From Longispora fulva (GTDB taxonomy: Bacteria > Actinomycetota > Actinomycetes > Mycobacteriales > Micromonosporaceae): a DNA stretch of 64,000 nt. Positions 5,821 through 56,440 of this stretch are shown one piece after another. Under the pieces are notes generated by a model. The model did not search any database, was not told the DNA's origin, and saw only the letters and a list, made by a program, of their open reading frames with translations. The first letter of the stretch is position 1. Every line of letters begins with the position of its first letter. The stretch is from the NCBI RefSeq assembly GCF_015751905.1, contig NZ_JADOUF010000001.1, forward strand, positions 8,059,501-8,123,500, read 5' to 3'. The position numbers were made by a program, and so were the translations under genes.

Positions 5821-6813
5821 CTACAGCTCGAAGCCCGTGGGGAACGGGTCGCGCGGGTCCAGGAGGTACTGGGCCATCCCCGTGATCCACGCCCGCCCCG
5901 TCACGGTCGGCACCACCGCCGGATACTCCCCGACCGTGGTCTCCTCCACCAGCCGCCCGATGAACCGGGTCCCGATGAACGACTCGTTGACGAAGTCGTC
6001 CCCGAGCGCCAGCTCCCCGCGCGCCCACAGCGACGCCATCCGCGCCGACGTGCCCGTGCCGCACGGCGACCGGTCGAACCACCCCGGGTGGATGGCCATC
6101 GCGTGCCGGGAGTGCTTCGCGTCGGAGCCGGGCGCCGCCAGGTACACGTGGTGCACGCCCTGCATCGTCGGCAGCAGCGGGTGGGTCGGGTTGGGGATCG
6201 CGTCCATGATGGCCAGGCCGGCTTTCAGGAGCGACTCCTTGGCGGACCGGTCGAACGGCAGGCCCAGCTCGTCGAGCTGGACGATGGCGTAGAAGTTGCC
6301 GCCGTAGGCCAGGTCGTAGCGGACCGTGCCGTAGCCGGGAACGTCGACCGTGGCGTCCAGGGCCACCGAGAAGGCGGGCACGTTGGTGAACGTGACCGAC
6401 TCGGCCCGGCCGTCGCGGACCGCCACCGAGGCGACCACGAGGCCGGCCGGGGTGTCCAGCCGGACCGTGGTCACCGGCTCGGTGACCGGCACCATGCCGG
6501 TCTCCACCAGGACCGTCGCCACGCCGATCGTGCCGTGCCCGCACATCGGCAGGCAGCCGGACACCTCGATGAACAGCACGCCGAAGTCGGCGTCCGGCCG
6601 GGTCGGGGGCTGCAGGATCGCGCCCGACATGGCGGCGTGGCCGCGCGGCTCGTTCATCAGGAACTGCCGGATGTGGTCCATGTTGGCGATGAAGTGTTCG
6701 CGGCGCTCGGCCATCGTCGCGCCCGGGATCACGCCCATGCCGCCCGTGATGACCCGGGTGGGCATGCCCTCGGTGTGCGAGTCGACGGCGGTCAGGTAGC
6801 GGGAGAAGTTCAT
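5821..6813 (-). CDS. 4-hydroxyproline epimerase / proline racemase family
   Basis: 330-residue cofactor-independent epimerase. Both catalytic cysteines are present: Cys91 in MCGHG and Cys251 in CGTGTS. This fits proline racemase or 4-hydroxyproline 2-epimerase and argues against trans-3-hydroxyproline dehydratase, which has Thr at the second position. The neighbours favour epimerisation of trans-4-hydroxy-L-proline to cis-4-hydroxy-D-proline, the first catabolic step. The ATG overlaps the upstream gene's stop (ATGA at 6810-6813), and it is the last gene of the four-gene operon. A HypE/LhpA-type label is likely but depends on context. Confidence 0.88.
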   Translation of the reverse strand: MNFSRYLTAVDSHTEGMPTRVITGGMGVIPGATMAERREHFIANMDHIRQFLMNEPRGHAAMSGAILQPPTRPDADFGVLFIEVSGCLPMCGHGTIGVATVLVETGMVPVTEPVTTVRLDTPAGLVVASVAVRDGRAESVTFTNVPAFSVALDATVDVPGYGTVRYDLAYGGNFYAIVQLDELGLPFDRSAKESLLKAGLAIMDAIPNPTHPLLPTMQGVHHVYLAAPGSDAKHSRHAMAIHPGWFDRSPCGTGTSARMASLWARGELALGDDFVNESFIGTRFIGRLVEETTVGEYPAVVPTVTGRAWITGMAQYLLDPRDPFPTGFEL

Positions 6814-7718
6814 CGCCCGGCCAGGTACGAGATCGCCTTGTCCATGTCCGCCTTCACCTGTGCCGTCTGGGTCTCGCTCAGCGGCCCGCGCGGCGGCCGG
6901 CACGCGCCGCCGACCCGGCCGACGAGCTCCTGACCGAGCTTGATGGCCTGCACGAACTCGGTGCGCGAGTCCCAGCGGAACGCGGCGACGAGCGGCTCGT
7001 AGATCGCCCGGGCCCCGGCGACGTCGCCAGCGGTGGCGAGCGTGTACAGCTCCACCGACTCCTTCGGGAACACGTTCGGGAAGCCGGCCAGCCAGCCGAC
7101 GGCGCCCATCAGCAGACTCTCCAGGACCACGTCGTCGGCGCCGGACACGACGTCGAGGTCGGGGGCCGCCTCGCGGATCTCCAGCACGCGGCGGACGTCG
7201 CCGGAGAACTCCTTGACCGCGACGATGTTGTCCAGGGTCGCGATCTCGGCGAGCACGTCCGGGGTCAGGTCGACCTTGGTGTCGATCGGGTTGTTGTAGA
7301 CCATCACCGGCAGGCCGACCTCGGCGATCTCGGCGAAATGCGCGACGACCTCGGAGCGGTTCGCCCGGTACATGGTCGGCGGCAGAGCCAGCACGCCGTG
7401 CGCGCCGGCCTCGGCGGCCTGCTCGGCCCACAGCCGGGCCTGGTGCGAGCCCGGCGCGGACACCCCGGCCACGACGACGCCGTCGGAGCCGACCGCCGCG
7501 ACGGCGGTGCGCACGACCCGGGCGCGCTCCTCGTCGGTCAGCGACGAGTACTCACCGAGCGAGCCGTTCGGCGTCACACCCCGGCAGCCGTTGGCGACGA
7601 GCCACGCGCAGTGCTCGGCGTACGCGTCGTAGTCGACCCGCAGGCCGGCCGGGGCGGCGGCGTCGGTGGCGTAGGGCAGGGTGGTGGCGACGATGACGCC
7701 GCGCAGATCCGTACTCAT
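6810..7718 (-). CDS. DapA-family aldolase, probable pyrroline-hydroxycarboxylate deaminase
   Basis: 302-residue class I aldolase of the dihydrodipicolinate synthase/N-acetylneuraminate lyase family. The Schiff-base Lys169 is in VKEFSGD, and the partner Tyr141 is in YNNP. In bacterial hydroxyproline pathways a DapA homologue deaminates 1-pyrroline-4-hydroxy-2-carboxylate to alpha-ketoglutarate semialdehyde, and this operon supplies the epimerase and oxidase that would make its substrate. It starts by ATGA overlap with the upstream flavoprotein gene and ends by ATGA overlap with the epimerase. Other DapA-family reactions are possible, but the setting makes lysine biosynthesis unlikely. Confidence 0.86.
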   Translation of the reverse strand: MSTDLRGVIVATTLPYATDAAAPAGLRVDYDAYAEHCAWLVANGCRGVTPNGSLGEYSSLTDEERARVVRTAVAAVGSDGVVVAGVSAPGSHQARLWAEQAAEAGAHGVLALPPTMYRANRSEVVAHFAEIAEVGLPVMVYNNPIDTKVDLTPDVLAEIATLDNIVAVKEFSGDVRRVLEIREAAPDLDVVSGADDVVLESLLMGAVGWLAGFPNVFPKESVELYTLATAGDVAGARAIYEPLVAAFRWDSRTEFVQAIKLGQELVGRVGGACRPPRGPLSETQTAQVKADMDKAISYLAGR

Positions 7719-48409: not shown

Positions 48410-48444
48410 GCGGCCCCGCACTGCCGACCGGCGTGCGGGGCCGC
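48410..48444. terminator. Hairpin terminator of the amino-sugar operon
   Basis: GCGGCCCCGCA and TGCGGGGCCGC form a perfect 11-bp stem with a 13-nt loop, between the ngcG-like stop and the convergent Nudix gene. Confidence 0.8.
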
Positions 48445-48453
48445 TGCACGTCC

Positions 48454-48921
48454 TCAGACGGCCGCGAAGTACGCCGCGGCGACCGCCGTGTGGTTGGGGA
48501 ACGCCAGCTCGGTGGGGGCGAAGATGACCTCGTACCCGCTGGTCTCCTCTGTCAGTTCCGTCGGCGCGGCCTCGATCTCCGGCAGCAGCCCGAACACCAG
48601 GATGTGCCACTGGCTGCTCTGCACCGCGTGCAGCCGCACCTGCTCGGCGCCGAACACGATCGTGGTCTCCTCGCGCAGCTCGCGGACCACCGACTCCTGC
48701 CACGACTCGCCGAACTCCATGAACCCGCCCGGCAGGCACAGGTGCCCGCGCTGCGGCTCGATGTCGCGGCGCACCGTGAGCAGCCCGCCGCCCTGGACGG
48801 GGACGACGGCGAGGGCCACGGGGAGCGGGTTGCGGTAGGTGAACTCGCCGCAGCCCTGGCAGTGCCGGGGCCAGACATCGTTCGTGAACTTGGTGCCGCA
48901 GTGGGTGCAGAAGATCGCCAT
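48454..48921 (-). CDS. Nudix hydrolase with zinc ribbon
   Basis: 155 residues. A Cys4 zinc ribbon opens the protein (FCTHCG and HCQGCG), followed by the Nudix box GFMEFGESWQESVVRELREE (residues about 67-86, complete G-x5-E-x7-REUXEE pattern). The ribbon recalls NADH-pyrophosphatase NudC-type proteins, but the chain is half their length, so the substrate is open. Divergent from the polymerase gene by 39 bp. Confidence 0.88.
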   Translation of the reverse strand: MAIFCTHCGTKFTNDVWPRHCQGCGEFTYRNPLPVALAVVPVQGGGLLTVRRDIEPQRGHLCLPGGFMEFGESWQESVVRELREETTIVFGAEQVRLHAVQSSQWHILVFGLLPEIEAAPTELTEETSGYEVIFAPTELAFPNHTAVAAAYFAAV

Positions 48922-48960
48922 ACGCAGATCCTGTCAGAGGGCTGTGGCACAGTCAGTGCC

Positions 48961-50676
48961 GTGGAGCGGATCGCGGTGGTGGAGACCCCTGAGGGGGGCT
49001 TCCGGCTGCGCGCCCTCGATCGACCCGGCGCGCCGACGGAGCAGGTCACGGGCCCGGCGGCCCTCGACCGGCCAGGCGTGCGCTGGGTGTGGGCCGACAC
49101 GACGGCGATCTACCCCAAGCTGCTCGCCGCCGGGGTGCGCGTCACCGCCTGCCACGACGCCGCGCTCACCGAGGCCCTGCTGTCCGGGCACGACGGCCGC
49201 TGGGGGGAGCCCCGGGCCCTGCGCGCCGCGTGGGCCCGGCTGACCGGCGCGCCGGTGCCGGCCGACCCGCCGGTCCGGGAGCGCGACACCCAGCCGACCC
49301 TGTTCGAGCCGTTCGACGACGGGGTGCCCACCGGGGTCGACGCCCTCGACGTGCTGGCTGCCGTGCACGCCGCGCAGGTCGACCGGATGCCGGACGCGGC
49401 GTTCCGGCTGCTCGTGGCCGTCGAGTCCGCCGGTGCCCTGGCCGCGGCGGAGATGGGCCACGTCGGGCTGCCCTGGCGGGCCGACGTGCACGACGCGCTG
49501 CTCGTCGAGCTGCTCGGCGAGCGGGCCGGGCCGGGCATGCCGCCCCGCCGGCTCACCGAGCTGGCCGCGCAGGTGGTCGCCGCCCTCGGCGGGCCGGTGT
49601 TCCACGTCGACTCGCCGGCCGAGGTGATCCGGGCCTTCGCCCGGGTCGGGATCCGGCTGCCGTCGACCCGCAGCTGGGTGCTGAAGGACGTGGACCATCC
49701 GGCGGTCGCGCCGTTGCTGGCCCACAAGGAGCTCTACCGGTTGTACGTGGCGCACGGGTGGAACTGGCTCGACACCTGGGTCTCGGCCGGCCGCTTCCGC
49801 GCGGAGTACGTGGCGGGCGGGGTCGTCACCGGCCGGTGGGCCACCCGGGGCGGGGCGGCCCTGCAGATCCCCAAGGTGGTGCGCCGCGCCGTGGTGGCCG
49901 ACCCGGGGCATGTGCTGGTGTGCGCCGACGCCGGGCAGTTGGAGCCGCGGATCCTGGCGGCGATGGCCGGCGACCACCGGCTGGCCGAGGCGGCCCGGGA
50001 CGCGGATCTGTACGCGCGGCTGGCCGCCGAGGCGTTCGGCGGCGACCGGCAGCGCGCGAAGATCGGCATGCTCGCCGCGATGTACGGGCAGACGTCCGGC
50101 GAGGCCGCGGCCCCGCTGGCGACGCTGCGTCGGCGGTTCCCCGTGGCGCTCGAGTGCGTGGAGCAGGCGGCCCGGGCGGGGGAGGAGGGCCGCCTGGTCC
50201 GGTCCCGCCTGGGCCGGACGTGCCCGTCGCCGTCGGTGGGCTGGTGGGGTGCCGTCGGCGAGGTGGGTGGCGGGGGTGAGGGCGGCTCCGCGGAGTGGGG
50301 TGCGGGCGGCGGAGGTTTCCAGGATGGTCAGGCCCAGGCGGACCAACAGACAGACGCGGGTGGCCGCGACGGCGGGTCGCGGGCCCGGGCGCGGGGACGG
50401 TTCACCCGGAACTTCGTGGTGCAGGCGACAGCGGCCGAGTGGGCGTTGGCGCTGGTCGCGGGGCTGCGGCGGGAGTTGATGGCGATTGACGGGGCGGAGC
50501 TGGTGTTCTTCCAGCACGACGAGGTGATCGTGCACTGTCCGGCGGGGGTGGCCGAGCGGGTCACGGCCGCGGTCGCGGAGGCCGCCCGGCGGGCCGGGGA
50601 GCTGCTGTTCAGGGACACGCCGGTGCTGTTCCCGGTCGGCGCGGTGGTCGTGGACTCCTACGCTGACGCGAAGTAG
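48961..50676 (+). CDS. Divergent family-A DNA polymerase (bifunctional 3'-5' exonuclease/polymerase annotation)
   Basis: 571 residues. The polymerase half is intact in outline: motif A reads ADAGQLEPR with the catalytic Asp, motif B has QRAKIGMLAAMYGQ, motif C is QHDEVIVH. The N-terminal half sits where the exonuclease should be but shows no clear DEDD residues. A Gly/Ser/Ala-rich insert of about 55 residues (about 420-475) splits the fingers region from RARGRFTRNFVVQ. Shorter than Pol I and without a 5' nuclease. It may serve in repair. GTG 48961 chosen by conservation; no good ribosome site. Confidence 0.83.
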   Translation: MERIAVVETPEGGFRLRALDRPGAPTEQVTGPAALDRPGVRWVWADTTAIYPKLLAAGVRVTACHDAALTEALLSGHDGRWGEPRALRAAWARLTGAPVPADPPVRERDTQPTLFEPFDDGVPTGVDALDVLAAVHAAQVDRMPDAAFRLLVAVESAGALAAAEMGHVGLPWRADVHDALLVELLGERAGPGMPPRRLTELAAQVVAALGGPVFHVDSPAEVIRAFARVGIRLPSTRSWVLKDVDHPAVAPLLAHKELYRLYVAHGWNWLDTWVSAGRFRAEYVAGGVVTGRWATRGGAALQIPKVVRRAVVADPGHVLVCADAGQLEPRILAAMAGDHRLAEAARDADLYARLAAEAFGGDRQRAKIGMLAAMYGQTSGEAAAPLATLRRRFPVALECVEQAARAGEEGRLVRSRLGRTCPSPSVGWWGAVGEVGGGGEGGSAEWGAGGGGFQDGQAQADQQTDAGGRDGGSRARARGRFTRNFVVQATAAEWALALVAGLRRELMAIDGAELVFFQHDEVIVHCPAGVAERVTAAVAEAARRAGELLFRDTPVLFPVGAVVVDSYADAK

Positions 50677-50937: not shown

Positions 50938-52188
50938 TCACGGGGCGGTGTGGCTGACCCCGGTGAGGAGGAGCCAGACGCGGCAGTTGTTGGCCGACGT
51001 GCCCGCCAGGGGTGCGCCGGCCGTCGTGCAGGTGGTGCGGAGCGTGACCGTCTTGCCGGCCGGGACGTCCACCGGGGTGCCGAGGTGGTGGTCGAGGTCG
51101 CGGAAGTTGGCCAGCGACAGCGTCATGATGACCTGCCCGTCGACGAGCACCTCGACCTTGCCGGTGTCGCCCTGCGGCGCCTGGAAGATCATGTCGGTGA
51201 CGCTCAGTGACGTCTTCGCGCCGAGGGTCAGGGGCGTTCCGGAGGCGGTGGCGCCGTTGGCGGCGAGGTTCTCCAGCCGGAACCGGTAGTTCGCGTGCAC
51301 GGTGGCCGGGGGCTGCACGGGCGGCGGGGGCGGCGGTGGTGAGCCCTCGGCCTTCGCCTTGGCCTCCTTGGCGACCTGCTCGGCGTTGTCGGCCTTCTCC
51401 GCGACCTGGGTCAGCGGCGCCCTCACCGACTCCTTGGCCGTGGACTTCACAGCCGGCTTGAGCAGCAGGAACCAGACGGCGGCCCCGGCCAGGACCAGGG
51501 CGAGCGCGCCGGCGACCAGGCGGGCCAGGGTCCGGGAGAACACCGGGTTCTGCACGATCGCGCCGTCGAGCGCGATCGGCCGGGAACCGTCGTCGGCGGT
51601 GACCGTGACCTGGAAGGGGTGCGTCACGGGCTGCCCGCGCCACAGCCGGCTGTTCGCGCGCACCACGACCCTCGCGAACACCGCCTGGCCGGGGGGCACC
51701 GTGAGGATCGACGGCCGGGGCGAGACCAGCAGCTTGCCGTCCGGGTCGCCGCCGGCCACCTGGACGGTGACGGGCACGTTGCCCCGGTTGTCGACCGCCA
51801 GCTCGTGCCGGGCGCGCCGGCCCTGCGAGGTGCGCGGGGTGAGTTCGGCCCCGGTGTCGGTGAACGGGAGGACGTGCAGCACGCCCTCGGGGGCGACGGC
51901 GGACCCGGGGTGTTCCGTGGGCAGTACCCGGACGGCGAAGGGCAGCTCGCCGGCCGGTACGGACCCCGAGCGGGGCGGGTGGAAGGAGACCACGACGACG
52001 GTCTCCGCACCGGGGTAGAGGCTCACTACCGCCGGTTCGACGGCGGCGAAGGGCGCGGCGTCGCCGACGACCTCGAACCGGTACTCCTCGACGACGTCGC
52101 CGTTGTTGCGCAACGTCAGTTCGCAGGTGGTCTGCGAGCCAGGGGCGACTTCGAGCATGGTGGATGTCAGTACGGCCAGGGTCGTCAT
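50938..52188 (-). CDS. eCIS-associated membrane protein (COG1470-like, often named hydrolytic protein)
   Basis: 416 residues. Two Ig-like beta domains (about 1-110 and 115-215) resemble NEW3/COG1470 sheets; a membrane helix follows (about 225-247), then an Ala/Lys/Glu coiled stretch, a Pro7 run and a beta-rich outer domain (about 305-416). I recall proteins with this N-terminal pattern in Streptomyces contractile-injection loci under the name hydrolytic protein; no hydrolase motif is seen. TAACCT ends 7 nt before the ATG, suggesting a leaderless mRNA. Divergent from the LuxR gene. Confidence 0.7.
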   Translation of the reverse strand: MTTLAVLTSTMLEVAPGSQTTCELTLRNNGDVVEEYRFEVVGDAAPFAAVEPAVVSLYPGAETVVVVSFHPPRSGSVPAGELPFAVRVLPTEHPGSAVAPEGVLHVLPFTDTGAELTPRTSQGRRARHELAVDNRGNVPVTVQVAGGDPDGKLLVSPRPSILTVPPGQAVFARVVVRANSRLWRGQPVTHPFQVTVTADDGSRPIALDGAIVQNPVFSRTLARLVAGALALVLAGAAVWFLLLKPAVKSTAKESVRAPLTQVAEKADNAEQVAKEAKAKAEGSPPPPPPPVQPPATVHANYRFRLENLAANGATASGTPLTLGAKTSLSVTDMIFQAPQGDTGKVEVLVDGQVIMTLSLANFRDLDHHLGTPVDVPAGKTVTLRTTCTTAGAPLAGTSANNCRVWLLLTGVSHTAP

Positions 52189-52341
52189 GATCACGAGGTT
52201 ATGAACCGTTTTGGCGAGCCGGTACGGGCGACCGGGAACACTTTCGGGCATAAGTTCTGCCCGTTGACCCCACGTTGACTGGACGCTGAGGGGCATCGGT
52301 CATGCTCTCCCCAGGTGTCCCTCTGGCACGGGGAGCAATTC

Positions 52342-52971
52342 ATGTTGATCAGTAGAATCCCGGTGTACCTGCACGCCGTCGACCCGATCTCGCACGCGGG
52401 TGTCGCCGGCCAGTTGCGCCCCCGCCCGGAGATCCAGATCCTCGGCGAGGCGGAACTCGATCTGGCGAAAGTAGCACTGATGGTCGTCGACACGGTCGAC
52501 GACGAGGTTCTGCGCCTGCTGCGCAGCCTCCGGTGCGGCGGCGTGCACCAGCTCGTCGTCGTCGCCCGGCAACTCGCCGACTCCGACCTCGTCTCGCTCG
52601 TCGAGGTGGGCGTCGGCGGCCTGATCCGGCGCTCCGAGGCCACCTCGGACCGGCTGGTCTCGGTGATCATGAGCGCGGCGGCCGGCGAGGGCGTCATCCC
52701 GCCGGACCTGCTCGGCCGGCTGTTGTCCCAGGTCGGCCAGGTGCAGCGCCAGGTGCTCGGGCCGCGCGGCCTGACCTTCTCCGGGCTCGCCGAGCGCGAG
52801 ATCCAGGTGCTCAAGCTCGTCGCCGACGGCCTGGACACGGCGGAGATCGCGCTCAAGCTGTCGTACTCGCAGCGCACCGTGAAGAACGTGCTGCACGACA
52901 TCACCAGCCGGCTGCACCTGCGCAACCGGTCGCACGCCGTGGCGTACGCGCTCCGGCACGGGCTGATCTGA
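52342..52971 (+). CDS. LuxR-type regulator with atypical receiver domain
   Basis: 209 residues. The C-terminal LuxR HTH is standard (LAEREIQVLKLVADGLDTAE). The N-terminal half folds like a receiver but lacks the acidic pair, has only one Asp near the phospho-site (LMVVDTVDDE), and shows Arg where Lys is expected (GLIRRSE), so phosphorylation is doubtful. GGGGAG lies 6 nt before ATG 52342. It leads the eCIS gene group and overlaps the DUF4255 gene by one base, making it the likely activator of that operon. Confidence 0.85.
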   Translation: MLISRIPVYLHAVDPISHAGVAGQLRPRPEIQILGEAELDLAKVALMVVDTVDDEVLRLLRSLRCGGVHQLVVVARQLADSDLVSLVEVGVGGLIRRSEATSDRLVSVIMSAAAGEGVIPPDLLGRLLSQVGQVQRQVLGPRGLTFSGLAEREIQVLKLVADGLDTAEIALKLSYSQRTVKNVLHDITSRLHLRNRSHAVAYALRHGLI

Positions 52972-53630
52972 TGATCCACGAGGTGGACGACGGGCTGCGC
53001 AGGCTCCTCCGCGAGGAGGCGCTGCGCGGCACCGAGGTGGAGATCGCGCTCGACGCGCCCACGAAGGACTGGGCGGCCCGGCGCAACGCGCCCACCGTGA
53101 ACATGTACCTCTACGACATCCGCGAGGACATGCGCCGCCGGCAGCGGGGCATGCTCAACGAGTACGGCGGGGACGGGAACGTGGCGGCCCGGCACGCGCC
53201 GCCCCGGTACCTGAAACTGTCGTATCTCATCACCGCGTGGACCCAGCGGCCCGAGGACGAGCACCGGCTGCTGTCGAACCTGCTCGTCTGCCTGCTGGGG
53301 CACGAGGCGCTGCCGGCGGCGGTGCTCAGCGGGTCGCTGGTGGCCTTCGGGCTGCCGGTGCCGCTGACGTGCGCGCTGCCGCCGCCGGAGGACCGGGCGT
53401 TCGCCGACGTCTGGACCGCGCTCGGTGGCGAGCTGAAGCCGTCGTTGGACGTGGTGATCAGCGCGCCCGTGGACCCGGGTCGCCGGTTCCCGGTCGGGCC
53501 GCCGGCCGAGGGCGGAATGCTGCTGAAGATGGGTGGGGACAGTGTCGGGCACGAGGTGCCGGCGGACGCGACGCCGGGGGAGCCGAGGGTGGCGATGATG
53601 CGGTCGCGGCAGGGGAAGGGGACGACGTGA
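52971..53630 (+). CDS. DUF4255 protein, eCIS tail-terminator type (Pvc16-like)
   Basis: 219 residues of the DUF4255 family: NAPTVNMYLYDIREDMRRR and RYLKLSYLITAWTQRPEDEH are its conserved blocks. In extracellular contractile injection systems the DUF4255 protein caps the sheath-tube end. TGATG overlap with the LuxR gene and GTGA overlap with the ATPase gene show one translationally coupled unit. No sheath or tube gene is next to it. Confidence 0.86.
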   Translation: MIHEVDDGLRRLLREEALRGTEVEIALDAPTKDWAARRNAPTVNMYLYDIREDMRRRQRGMLNEYGGDGNVAARHAPPRYLKLSYLITAWTQRPEDEHRLLSNLLVCLLGHEALPAAVLSGSLVAFGLPVPLTCALPPPEDRAFADVWTALGGELKPSLDVVISAPVDPGRRFPVGPPAEGGMLLKMGGDSVGHEVPADATPGEPRVAMMRSRQGKGTT

Positions 53631-55684
53631 GCGCCACCTCCGGGCCCGCCTCCGCGTCGGGCCTCGTGCCGGGCCCGGTGCCGGTCGATGACGGGCTCGC
53701 CCAGCTGCTCGCCCTCCTCGCCGGCCTCGAACAACGCGTCCGGGTGGCCGTCGCGGCCCGCCGCGCCGCCGACCCGGCCCCCGACGACCCGTTCCGCGGC
53801 CTCTACCTCTCCGACGAGGCCATCGACGCCCTTCTCGACGCCCGCCGCGACCCGTGGCCCGCCGACGGGCCCGGCCCGACGCACGGTCGGCTCGCCGCCC
53901 TGGTCACGGCCGCGGCCCTCGAGCCGCTCGACGGGGAACTCCTCCTCGTCGCGCTCGCCCCCGACGTGGACAGCAGGTTCGAGCAGTTCTACGGGTACCT
54001 CAACGACGACGTCACCCGGCGGCGGGCCAGCGTCGGGCTCGCGCTCCGGCTGGCCGGGCTCCCCGAGGGGGCCGGCGCGGGCCGGGCCCGGTTCGACGCG
54101 GGCGCCCCGCTGCTCACCGCGGGCCTGCTCGTCGTCGAGGAGCCCGACCGGCCGCTGCTGTCCCGGCAGCTGCGGGTGCCCGACCGGGTGGTCGCGCACC
54201 TGCTCGGCGGCGACCTGCTCGCCCCTGCGCTGACCGGGCTGCTCGCCGACGCGCGCCCCGAGCCCCTGCTCACCGCCCAGCCCGACGCCGTCCGGCTGGG
54301 GCGGGCGCTGTCGGGCGGGGCTCTTTTGGCGTACCTGCGGGAACGCGGCGGCGGCTCCGGTCAGGCCCTGGGCGTGGCGGCCCTCGCCGCGGCCGGCCGG
54401 CCGGCGCTCGCCGTGGACGCCGCCCGGTACGCCGCGGGCCCGGCCGGCACCGCGCTGGTCCGCGAGGCGGTCCTGCGCGGGGCCGGTGTGGTGTTCGGGC
54501 CGGTCGACGGCCACGACCCGACGGAGCTGCTCGACCTGTTCGACCGGGTCGGGGTGCCGCTGCTGCTGTACGGCACGGTCGGTTGGGACCCGCGCTGGAC
54601 GCACCGGCCACCGCTCAACATCACCGTCGAGGCCGTGTCGGCCGCCCTGCGCGCGGAGCTGTGGCGCACCGCCCTCGACGGGGCCGCGCTCGGCGACGGG
54701 GTGGATCCGGCCGCCGTCACCGCGCACTTCACCCTCGGTCCGCCCCAGATCCGCAGGGCGGCGCGTGCGGCGACCCTGGCGGCGTACGGCGACGACGGCG
54801 TGGTGCGGCCCGAGCACCTGCGGCACGGCGCGCGCAGTCAGAACGCCGCCGGCCTCGAACGCCTCGCCCGCCGGATCGAGCCGGCCGTCGGCTGGGCCGA
54901 CCTGGTCCTGCCGCCCGCCGTCACCGGCCAGCTCCGCGAGCTCGCCGGCCGGGCCCGGTTCCGCGACCGGGTGCTCGACGAGTGGCGGATGCGGCCCGGC
55001 GGCGGGCGCGGCCGGGGCGTGACCGGGCTGTTCGCCGGGGACTCCGGTACCGGGAAGACCATGTCCGCCGAGGTGATCGCCGGGTCGCTGGGCCTGGACC
55101 TGTACACGGTGAACCTGGCGACGGTCGTGGACAAGTACGTGGGCGAGACGGAAAAGAACCTCGAACGGATCTTCACCGAGGCCGCCGGGGTGAACGGGGT
55201 GCTCCTCTTCGACGAGGCAGACGCCATCTTCGGCAAGCGGTCGGAGGTCCGCGACGCGCACGACCGGTACGCCAACATCGAGTCCGCCTATCTCCTCCAG
55301 CGGCTGGAGACGTTCGACGGGCTGGCCATCCTCGCCACGAACCTGCGGGCCAACCTCGACGACGCGTTCACCCGCCGGATCGACATCGTGGTGGACTTCC
55401 CGCTGCCGGAGGCCGAGCTGCGCCGCGCCCTGTGGGACGGCTGCCTCGGCCGGCTCGCGCCGCGCGGCGCCGACCTGGACCTCGACTTCGTGGCAGGCGC
55501 GTTCGAGTTGGCCGGCGGGCACATCCGGTCGGCGGCGATCACCGCCGCCTACCTCGCGGTCGAGGCCGACCGGCCGGTGGCGATGGCCGACCTGATCGGG
55601 GCGGTGGCCCGCGAGTACCGGAAGCTGGGTCGGCTCTGCCTGGAGCGCGAGTTCGGCGGCTACCTTGCCCTCTTGGGCACCTGA
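53627..55684 (+). CDS. AAA+ ATPase of eCIS loci (Pvc15-like)
   Basis: 685 residues. The last 250 hold the AAA+ core: Walker A GDSGTGKT, Walker B LLFDEADAIFGKR, sensor-1 ATNLRANLDDAF with an arginine finger (FTRRIDI). The N-terminal 440 residues are an Ala/Leu/Arg-rich, partly degenerate AAA-like region. In eCIS such ATPases assist particle assembly or cargo loading. GTG 53627 overlaps the DUF4255 stop. Confidence 0.87.
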   Translation: MSATSGPASASGLVPGPVPVDDGLAQLLALLAGLEQRVRVAVAARRAADPAPDDPFRGLYLSDEAIDALLDARRDPWPADGPGPTHGRLAALVTAAALEPLDGELLLVALAPDVDSRFEQFYGYLNDDVTRRRASVGLALRLAGLPEGAGAGRARFDAGAPLLTAGLLVVEEPDRPLLSRQLRVPDRVVAHLLGGDLLAPALTGLLADARPEPLLTAQPDAVRLGRALSGGALLAYLRERGGGSGQALGVAALAAAGRPALAVDAARYAAGPAGTALVREAVLRGAGVVFGPVDGHDPTELLDLFDRVGVPLLLYGTVGWDPRWTHRPPLNITVEAVSAALRAELWRTALDGAALGDGVDPAAVTAHFTLGPPQIRRAARAATLAAYGDDGVVRPEHLRHGARSQNAAGLERLARRIEPAVGWADLVLPPAVTGQLRELAGRARFRDRVLDEWRMRPGGGRGRGVTGLFAGDSGTGKTMSAEVIAGSLGLDLYTVNLATVVDKYVGETEKNLERIFTEAAGVNGVLLFDEADAIFGKRSEVRDAHDRYANIESAYLLQRLETFDGLAILATNLRANLDDAFTRRIDIVVDFPLPEAELRRALWDGCLGRLAPRGADLDLDFVAGAFELAGGHIRSAAITAAYLAVEADRPVAMADLIGAVAREYRKLGRLCLEREFGGYLALLGT

Positions 55685-55726
55685 CTGTGCCCGCCAGTCG
55701 GCCGGGACCTGGGGCATCCTGAGGGC

Positions 55727-56440
55727 ATGCGTGGGCATGAGCACGACGTCGAGGAGAGCGCCCGGCCACGGGGCGACCGGAGCACGTCAGAGGACACCGA
55801 CCTGCTGGGGCGCGCCGCCGCGGCCGGCCGTCCCGACGTGCTCGGCGCCGCCGGGCTCCTCGGGTTGCAACGGGTCGCCGGCAACGCGGCGGTCGGGGAC
55901 GTGGTCGACGAGTCGCCGGTGCACGGGGTCGTCAACTCCGGCGGCGGGACCGGCCTCGACCCGGACACCCGGGGCGACATGGAGTCCCGGTTCGGCCAGG
56001 ACTTCGGGGACGTGCGGGTGCACACCGACGGCGCGGCGCACGACTCGGCGAAGGCCGTCAACGCGCAGGCGTACACGGTGGGCTCGAACATCGTCTTCCA
56101 GCGCGGCATGTACGACCCCGGGTCCAGCCAGGGTCGGCACATGCTCGCGCACGAGCTGACCCACGTGGTGCAGCAGCGCAACGGGCCGGTGGACGGCACG
56201 GACGTCGGTGGCGGGGTGCGGGTCAGCGACCCGGGGGACCGGTTCGAGCGCGAGGCGGTGTCCAACGCCGACCGGCTGATGTCCGGGCCGGCCCCGACGA
56301 CGGCGGAGGCTCCCGCCGGGGGCGGCTCCGTGCAGCGGCACGCCGAGGAGGACGCCGACGTCCAGCGGATCGAGGACGGGGCCCCGGCGGTGCAGCGCGA
56401 GGAGGAGGCCGGCGTGGAGGAGGAGGAAGCCCCGGCCTGA
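55727..56440 (+). CDS. DUF4157 (eCIS core) protein with HExxH motif
   Basis: 237 residues. The DUF4157 core (about 75-150) contains FGDVRVHTD, AYTVGSNIVF and AHELTHVVQQR, a zincin-type HELTH motif. The N-terminus is charged, the C-terminus very acidic (Glu-rich) and disordered. DUF4157 is a marker of eCIS loci and often fuses to toxins; here no toxin domain follows, so it may be a bare metallopeptidase-like factor. Starts 42 bp after the ATPase gene. Confidence 0.87.
   Translation: MRGHEHDVEESARPRGDRSTSEDTDLLGRAAAAGRPDVLGAAGLLGLQRVAGNAAVGDVVDESPVHGVVNSGGGTGLDPDTRGDMESRFGQDFGDVRVHTDGAAHDSAKAVNAQAYTVGSNIVFQRGMYDPGSSQGRHMLAHELTHVVQQRNGPVDGTDVGGGVRVSDPGDRFEREAVSNADRLMSGPAPTTAEAPAGGGSVQRHAEEDADVQRIEDGAPAVQREEEAGVEEEEAPA

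Follow-up and report, generated by a model that had tools for sequence, protein, structure and literature searches.

Two distant gene blocks in Longispora fulva probably encode one contractile injection system of the Streptomyces coelicolor kind

The stretch of the Longispora fulva chromosome analyzed here (64,000 bases of contig NZ_JADOUF010000001.1, positions 8,059,501 to 8,123,500; hereafter the window) carries a block of five genes related to contractile injection systems (CIS). They encode a membrane protein with Ig-like domains, a LuxR-type regulator, a cap protein of the DUF4255 type, an AAA+ ATPase and a DUF4157 protein, and all five, which had been proposed by an original prediction made from the sequence, were confirmed at this place by profile matches (Table 1). 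The top match of the cap in PDB was chain 9gts_0A of the S. coelicolor CIS cap entry (E=2.1e-60), and the Walker A motif of the ATPase was invariant in an alignment of 10 relatives. The LuxR protein, for which the NarL/NarP models stayed under the cut-off, is 90% identical between L. fulva and Longispora albida. The Ig-domain protein has a proline-rich stretch and a single transmembrane segment, and homologues of it were found in most of the contiguous relatives fetched; its gene likely starts at 52188 rather than at 52296, as the alignments of several homologues begin only near residue 37. Translational coupling, which had been claimed for the whole block, holds for part of it: the LuxR and cap genes overlap by 1 base and the cap and ATPase genes by 4 bases, whereas the DUF4157 gene begins 42 bases beyond the ATPase gene and has an operator-like site of its own, and the Ig gene is divergent from the other four.

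Table 1. Genes and palindromic sites of the five-gene block (positions are those of the window).
Feature	Position	Strand	Evidence or remark
Membrane protein, Ig-like (Cep192/HYDIN-like) domains	50938..52296	-	Pfam Cep192_D3 E=3.6e-12
GGGCA-N7-TGCCC palindrome	52246..52262	.	Between the divergent Ig and LuxR genes; sole exact match in the window
LuxR/NarL-type regulator	52342..52971	+	GerE E=3.1e-12
Cap (tail terminator), DUF4255/Pvc16 type	52971..53630	+	Pvc16_N E=4.1e-44
AAA+ ATPase (Cis15/Pvc15 position) with winged-helix domain	53627..55684	+	AAA E=2.2e-22; WHD PF22977 E=6.5e-22
Operator-like site TGCCC-N4-GGGCA-N8-TGCCC, exact	55666..55692	+	Overlaps the 3' end of the ATPase gene, precedes the DUF4157 gene
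DUF4157/eCIS_core (Sle2-type) protein, VQR motifs	55727..56440	+	eCIS_core E=1.6e-33

The genes for the contractile particle itself had been reported as absent. This is true of the window, where the only match to the structural proteins used as tblastn queries was the Ig protein, hit by its own paralogue, but not of the genome, which is a single contig of 8,676,660 bases. The whole-genome search that had been suggested found the sheath, tubes, hub/spike, PAAR, gp25, gpJ and Tail_P2_I in a structural block at about 8,479,383-8,494,053, on the same chromosome and 363,443 bases beyond the window block. The structural block encodes a zinc-ribbon paralogue of the Ig protein (38% by tblastn), the sheath, a gp19-type tube, a 990-residue low-complexity protein, a second tube, a CIS_tube/LysM protein, a hub with a spike domain, PAAR, gp25, gpJ (TIGR02243), Tail_P2_I, a membrane protein with a glycan-binding-like end and a BTAD-type regulator; the top PDB matches of the sheath were the S. 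coelicolor CIS entry set including 9gtp (E=7.6e-214). No match to the cap, ATPase, LuxR or DUF4157 protein was found in this block, the Ig protein being the only window-block protein with a match there. Genome-wide, the sheath, the DUF4255 cap and the DUF4157 protein gave one match each, the first in the structural block and the other two in the window block. The two blocks are thus complementary in predicted gene content, each half supplying what the other is without. The low-complexity protein (L003:1628-4600) lies between the tube genes, has VQR motifs resembling those of the DUF4157 protein, and keeps its N-terminus and final ~35 residues in relatives. The glycan-binding-like end (NF047619) belongs to a zinc-ribbon, membrane-type protein (L003:10611-12053) whose gene comes directly behind the baseplate genes, where S. 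coelicolor has CisA. Neither a tape-measure gene nor a fibre gene was recognised in the L. fulva system.

Nine genomes of the family (G036, G030, G056, G015, G008, G082, G026, G007 and G029) carry largely the same genes in one locus of ~20-35 kb, although single genes were undetected in some of them. Judged by sequence, the two blocks of L. fulva correspond to this one contiguous locus and are unlinked in both Longispora genomes. Of the possibilities raised for the window block, a split locus with its structural part elsewhere is therefore the one borne out, since the only sheath match lies in a cluster lacking cap and ATPase and the two sets are joined in the relatives. The LuxR-cap-ATPase-DUF4157 unit follows the structural genes in G026, where it is inverted, and in G007, so that it already behaves as a module. 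Our survey sample comprised 121 family genomes, 50 with a match to the cap profile and 68 with a match to the sheath profile. Of the 57 cap matches, 48 had a sheath within 15 kb and four had one at 16.6-28.6 kb; three were on contigs without a sheath-profile match (G007:C6, where the sheath was found by tblastn, and the fragmented assemblies G062 and G088), and the remaining two were far from the sheath, at 369 kb in L. fulva and 439 kb in L. albida. In the other 119 genomes, every cap that shared a contig with a sheath was within 29 kb of one. When we took the best 80 of 379 named ATPase loci, on which all counts at named loci below are based, the sheath lay within the fetched flanks of 60. 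Thirteen of the other 20 loci are short and end at contig ends; the remaining seven comprise two from the G026 and G007 genomes, one from L. albida, one from Actinokineospora enzanensis and three with the sheath ~11-21 kb from the ATPase, provided that contig numbers correspond.

The split is shared by L. albida (G040), the only other congener examined, in which the halves lie 435 kb apart on one contig. In both species each half retains the order and orientation of the joined locus and is surrounded by matching neighbour genes, and because order, orientation and surroundings agree in the two genomes, the split is most simply taken to be older than their divergence. A simple inversion as its cause is ruled out by the same retention of order and orientation. 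Trees of cap, ATPase and DUF4157 and of sheath, gpJ and hub each pair the two Longispora (support 94 and 100). The window block is flanked by a DNA-polymerase-A-domain gene on one side and by MOSC and FAD-oxidase genes on the other, and none of the non-CIS genes around either half had a match in the fetched flanks of the contiguous relatives at the thresholds used. The DNA-polymerase-A-domain gene (48433-50676 of the window), whose start is probably annotated too far upstream, adjoins the block in L. albida as well (83% identity). L. albida also has a second CIS-type locus (G040:C25:62566-68014; L026, L028, L029) with a cap and two nearby sheath matches, one of them under the family cut-off; no second cap or sheath match was found in the L. 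fulva genome.

A second split was seen in A. enzanensis, whose assembly is a draft in scaffolds. Its cap and ATPase genes lie at C2:433,074-435,742 (contig of 572,116 bases), and structural genes of the same kind lie at about C1:400,476-420,961 (contig of 671,370 bases) accompanied by an Ig protein and by genes for a DUF4157 protein and a LuxR regulator (51%); no cap or ATPase match was found in C1:364,001-460,000. The distances to the contig ends place the halves at least ~387 kb apart. This break is unlike that of Longispora in that the cap and ATPase genes alone have moved away. In the four other Actinokineospora loci fetched, the sheath was less than 4 kb from the ATPase match. A. enzanensis has three sheath loci (L157-L164), one being the split system and the other two, on C3 and C5, of different kinds.

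A motif search over upstream regions of nine genomes brought out a palindrome before the sheath gene, the first search having merged two patterns, one 5' of LuxR and the palindrome 5' of the sheath. The site has the core TGCCC-N4-GGGCA and, in its full 27-bp form, reads TGCCC-N4-GGGCA-N8-TGCCC. Allowing one mismatch in the core and taking the 250 bases upstream of each gene at the named loci, we found a core before the sheath in 59/60 loci (28 exact; the 60 bear 15 genus or group labels), before the DUF4157 gene in 40/51 (30 exact) and before the cap in 40/79 (31 exact), the last divided into 3/10 with the end of a LuxR gene in the preceding 400 bases and 37/69 elsewhere. No core preceded tube1 (0/56) or gpJ (0/14), and three of 41 LuxR genes had one; the Ig gene, a poor control, gave 2/42 with its start at residue 1 and 5/42 with its start near residue 37. 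For comparison, random 250-base windows of the same loci, sites included, gave 100/2400 (43 exact) and shuffled upstream regions 120/3800 (7 exact). The spacer of 4 was unique among those of 0-10, the others giving at most 2/60 before the sheath, 6/51 before the DUF4157 gene and 9/79 before the cap. Because the named loci are related, the counts cannot be taken as independent events; the spacer and flanks nevertheless vary. The counts show that a palindromic operator-like site precedes several CIS transcription units across actinobacteria. The outward palindrome GGGCA-N7-TGCCC is built from the half-sites of the same site; it was exact 5' of LuxR in 17/41 named loci and may mark autoregulation of LuxR. 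In G036 (L032:2634-6353) and G008 (L039:1780-5523), a gene for a large PD40/VWA protein (1239-1247 residues) that the window does not have stands between LuxR and cap and is preceded by an exact core.

Copies of the site occur in both halves. The window has one exact 27-mer, before the DUF4157 gene, and three matches with at most two mismatches against 0.88 expected; this match alone is modest and would draw its weight from its position and conservation. In the structural block (stretch L002) one-mismatch copies lie 107 bases before the sheath and 71 bases before the first gene, that of the Ig paralogue, where 0.14 matches with at most two mismatches were expected and two matches were obtained in 1 of 200 shuffles. 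L. albida has an exact 27-mer before the DUF4157 gene and a one-mismatch core before the sheath. The lone cap gene of A. enzanensis has an exact core 114 bases upstream, and the sheath gene of this species has a core with one mismatch 115 bases upstream.

We consider it probable that the window block is the cap, ATPase, effector-core and regulator part of a CIS of the S. coelicolor kind, with its particle genes in the second block 363 kb away and both blocks activated in trans by the LuxR protein. NarL-type regulators bind palindromes as dimers, and the LuxR protein of the window block, which we take to be the counterpart of SCO4263, would bind the operator-like site in this way. A single activator of this type could then act in trans on both blocks, or on several units, making linkage unnecessary for co-expression, so that the locus could come apart; the cap encoded in the window would terminate the particles made from the structural block, and the DUF4157 protein would tether cargo. 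In S. coelicolor, the transcript of SCO4253 starts 32 bp before the ATG and is reported to depend fully on the LuxR regulator SCO4263 (PMC2000904), SCO4253 being the target of the tail-sheath knockout in a study that describes normal-looking particles without the ATPase (PMC10020575). In S. lividans, deletion of slpR, the SCO4263 counterpart, is reported to abolish the particles (PMC8505568). Based on this published Streptomyces genetics, the window-block LuxR protein would most likely switch on both halves in trans. The sites begin mostly ~106-136 bases before the sheath ATG (range 61-180), and measured against the S. coelicolor start they would sit upstream of the transcript start, in the position of an activator site. 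Control through TTA (bldA-type) codons was discarded, as the Ig, LuxR, cap, ATPase, DUF4157, Ig-paralogue and sheath genes have none; one TTA is found in the open reading frame of the BTAD regulator (codon 80), before the part that aligns to homologues.

Several results weigh against this reading. The deeper nodes of the tree of cap, ATPase and DUF4157 are weak, with 18-69 for three of them. One-mismatch sites are no rarity by chance (~4% of 250-base windows), and for an exact 14-mer the number expected in the window is 0.18. The LuxR gene itself is without the site, which precedes the cap in only 40 of the 79 loci. A LuxR relative was not seen in the fetched flanks of 36 of the 80 named loci, although 32 of the 33 among them with a readable sheath upstream region carry the site; the binder could be another protein. 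The LuxR recognition helix fails to separate loci with the site from those without it. Finally, a 401-residue piece of the Sle1-type effector gave no match in the L. fulva genome, and the particle may therefore have no cargo or one of an unknown kind.

The points on binding bear on the alternative that we take most seriously, though we doubt it, namely that the palindrome is an RNA hairpin (an attenuator or leader) or is bound by some other protein, for example the BTAD regulator, rather than being a LuxR operator. TGCCC-N4-GGGCA can indeed form a 5-bp hairpin, its commonest deviation, T at position 5 (12% of sites), keeps a wobble pair, and the BTAD regulator adjoins the structural block, as would suit this view no less than the loci in which LuxR was not seen. 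Yet among 136 distinct sites ~90% have A or T at the two central bases, and a third half-site is often present 8 bases further along and 22 bases from the first, an arrangement expected of proteins bound on one face of the DNA. The distance of the sites from the sheath ATG relative to the S. coelicolor start, and the loss of the S. coelicolor sheath transcript that is reported upon LuxR deletion, also speak for an operator of LuxR.

The missing Sle1-type match would suit another alternative, in which both halves are remnants of a dying system, unlinked, stripped of cargo and no longer making particles. The large Sle1-type gene was matched in 47/80 named loci; G008 and G056 have it between the DUF4157 gene and the sheath, which is where Longispora is cut. 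The 401-residue piece that found nothing in L. fulva gave one match each in L. albida and G056. In L. albida the match is a gene for 1190 residues (L066:2560-6132), ~11 kb beyond the sheath and overlapped by a WD40-type gene (6129-7055). The corresponding place in L. fulva is without such a gene, which may have been lost there. We nevertheless regard a dying system as unlikely. In a simple Nei-Gojobori estimate, the ratio of nonsynonymous to synonymous substitution rates was 0.10-0.45 for 12 genes of both halves, similar to the values of two flanking genes (0.22 and 0.41), and no stops were found; both halves appear on this estimate to be under purifying selection, decay of the shared genes is ruled out, and the operator-like sites are retained in both halves. 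Complete contiguous loci do exist in relatives, as they would after the recent deletion and decay that had been named as a way to refute the original prediction, but no decay is seen here, and the structural part is unlinked, not lost.

That the block could form a reduced, repurposed system without a contractile particle, the structural cluster being a separate system, had been offered as the other possibility. The block is compact, partly translationally coupled and far from the particle genes, and even within the locus of G026 and of G007 it is set off from the structural genes, all of which this view would accommodate. We consider it very unlikely, since the sheath and the rest of the particle set are present in the genome, neither cap nor ATPase was found in the structural cluster, the only cap match of the genome lying in the window, both halves match one contiguous locus in nine relatives, and they have in common an operator-like site and purifying selection. 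That the split is an assembly artefact is hardly credible, for although L. fulva is represented by one assembly and A. enzanensis by scaffolds, two separately assembled Longispora genomes show the same separation, on one contig each and with matching neighbours.

We return to the reading of one split system under LuxR control and compare it with known systems. The CIS of S. coelicolor (CISSc, described as a type IId extracellular CIS, eCIS) and the SLP of S. lividans are closest: they provide the top PDB matches of cap and sheath, and they agree with L. fulva in having one cap protein, one main sheath gene, no recognised tape-measure gene, a LuxR regulator, a DUF4157 protein and, in the CisA position, a membrane protein with a glycan-binding-like end. 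The gene set of this kind is complete in the L. fulva genome, as far as genes alone can tell (sheath, tube, hub/spike, PAAR, gp25, gpJ/Tail_P2_I, cap and ATPase). L. fulva differs in the 363 kb between the particle genes and those of cap, ATPase, DUF4157 and LuxR, in the lack of a Sle1-type match, and in the operator-like site, which is not described for CISSc or SLP in the parts of their reports available to us. Of the Sle1/Sle2 effector pair, as presented in the available part of PMC13277306, L. fulva has the Sle2-type DUF4157 gene, but 363 kb from the sheath and without a Sle1-type match, whereas many relatives have a Sle1-type gene between the two. Afp of Serratia and PVC of Photorhabdus share the machine plan, and the cap weakly matches Afp16 (E=4.2e-5) and Pvc16 (E=9.1e-5); the similarity is far lower than to the Streptomyces system, and L. 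fulva, unlike both, has a single sheath gene and a system spread over two loci, with neither a fibre nor a tape-measure gene recognised. Neither a CIS split into two loci nor the operator-like site was found in the accessible portions of the open-licence literature in PubMed Central, so that the split, its recurrence and the site are new as far as we searched.

On balance we lean toward a wider view, in which the actinobacterial CIS is a regulon controlled in trans and not a single operon, several of its units each carrying their own 27-bp operator for one LuxR-type activator. Such control would free the cap/ATPase unit, which would have left the particle genes at least twice, and dispersed systems would escape surveys based on linkage. 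An eCIS survey, according to the available text of PMC8213781, groups core genes by 12-kb linkage and requires at least 10 of them, and under this rule a split system would go unnoticed or be reported incompletely; the distance between the L. fulva blocks exceeds that linkage, which is a rule of the survey and no mechanistic requirement. The operator-like site would offer a sequence handle for dispersed parts and unknown cargo genes across actinobacteria, and it makes the published LuxR dependence of sheath transcription testable at the DNA level. The departure of cap and ATPase from the particle genes in two lineages, by different breaks, bears on how the late parts of the machine are supplied. 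A machine that usually comes from one gene cluster can apparently persist as two clusters under shared control.

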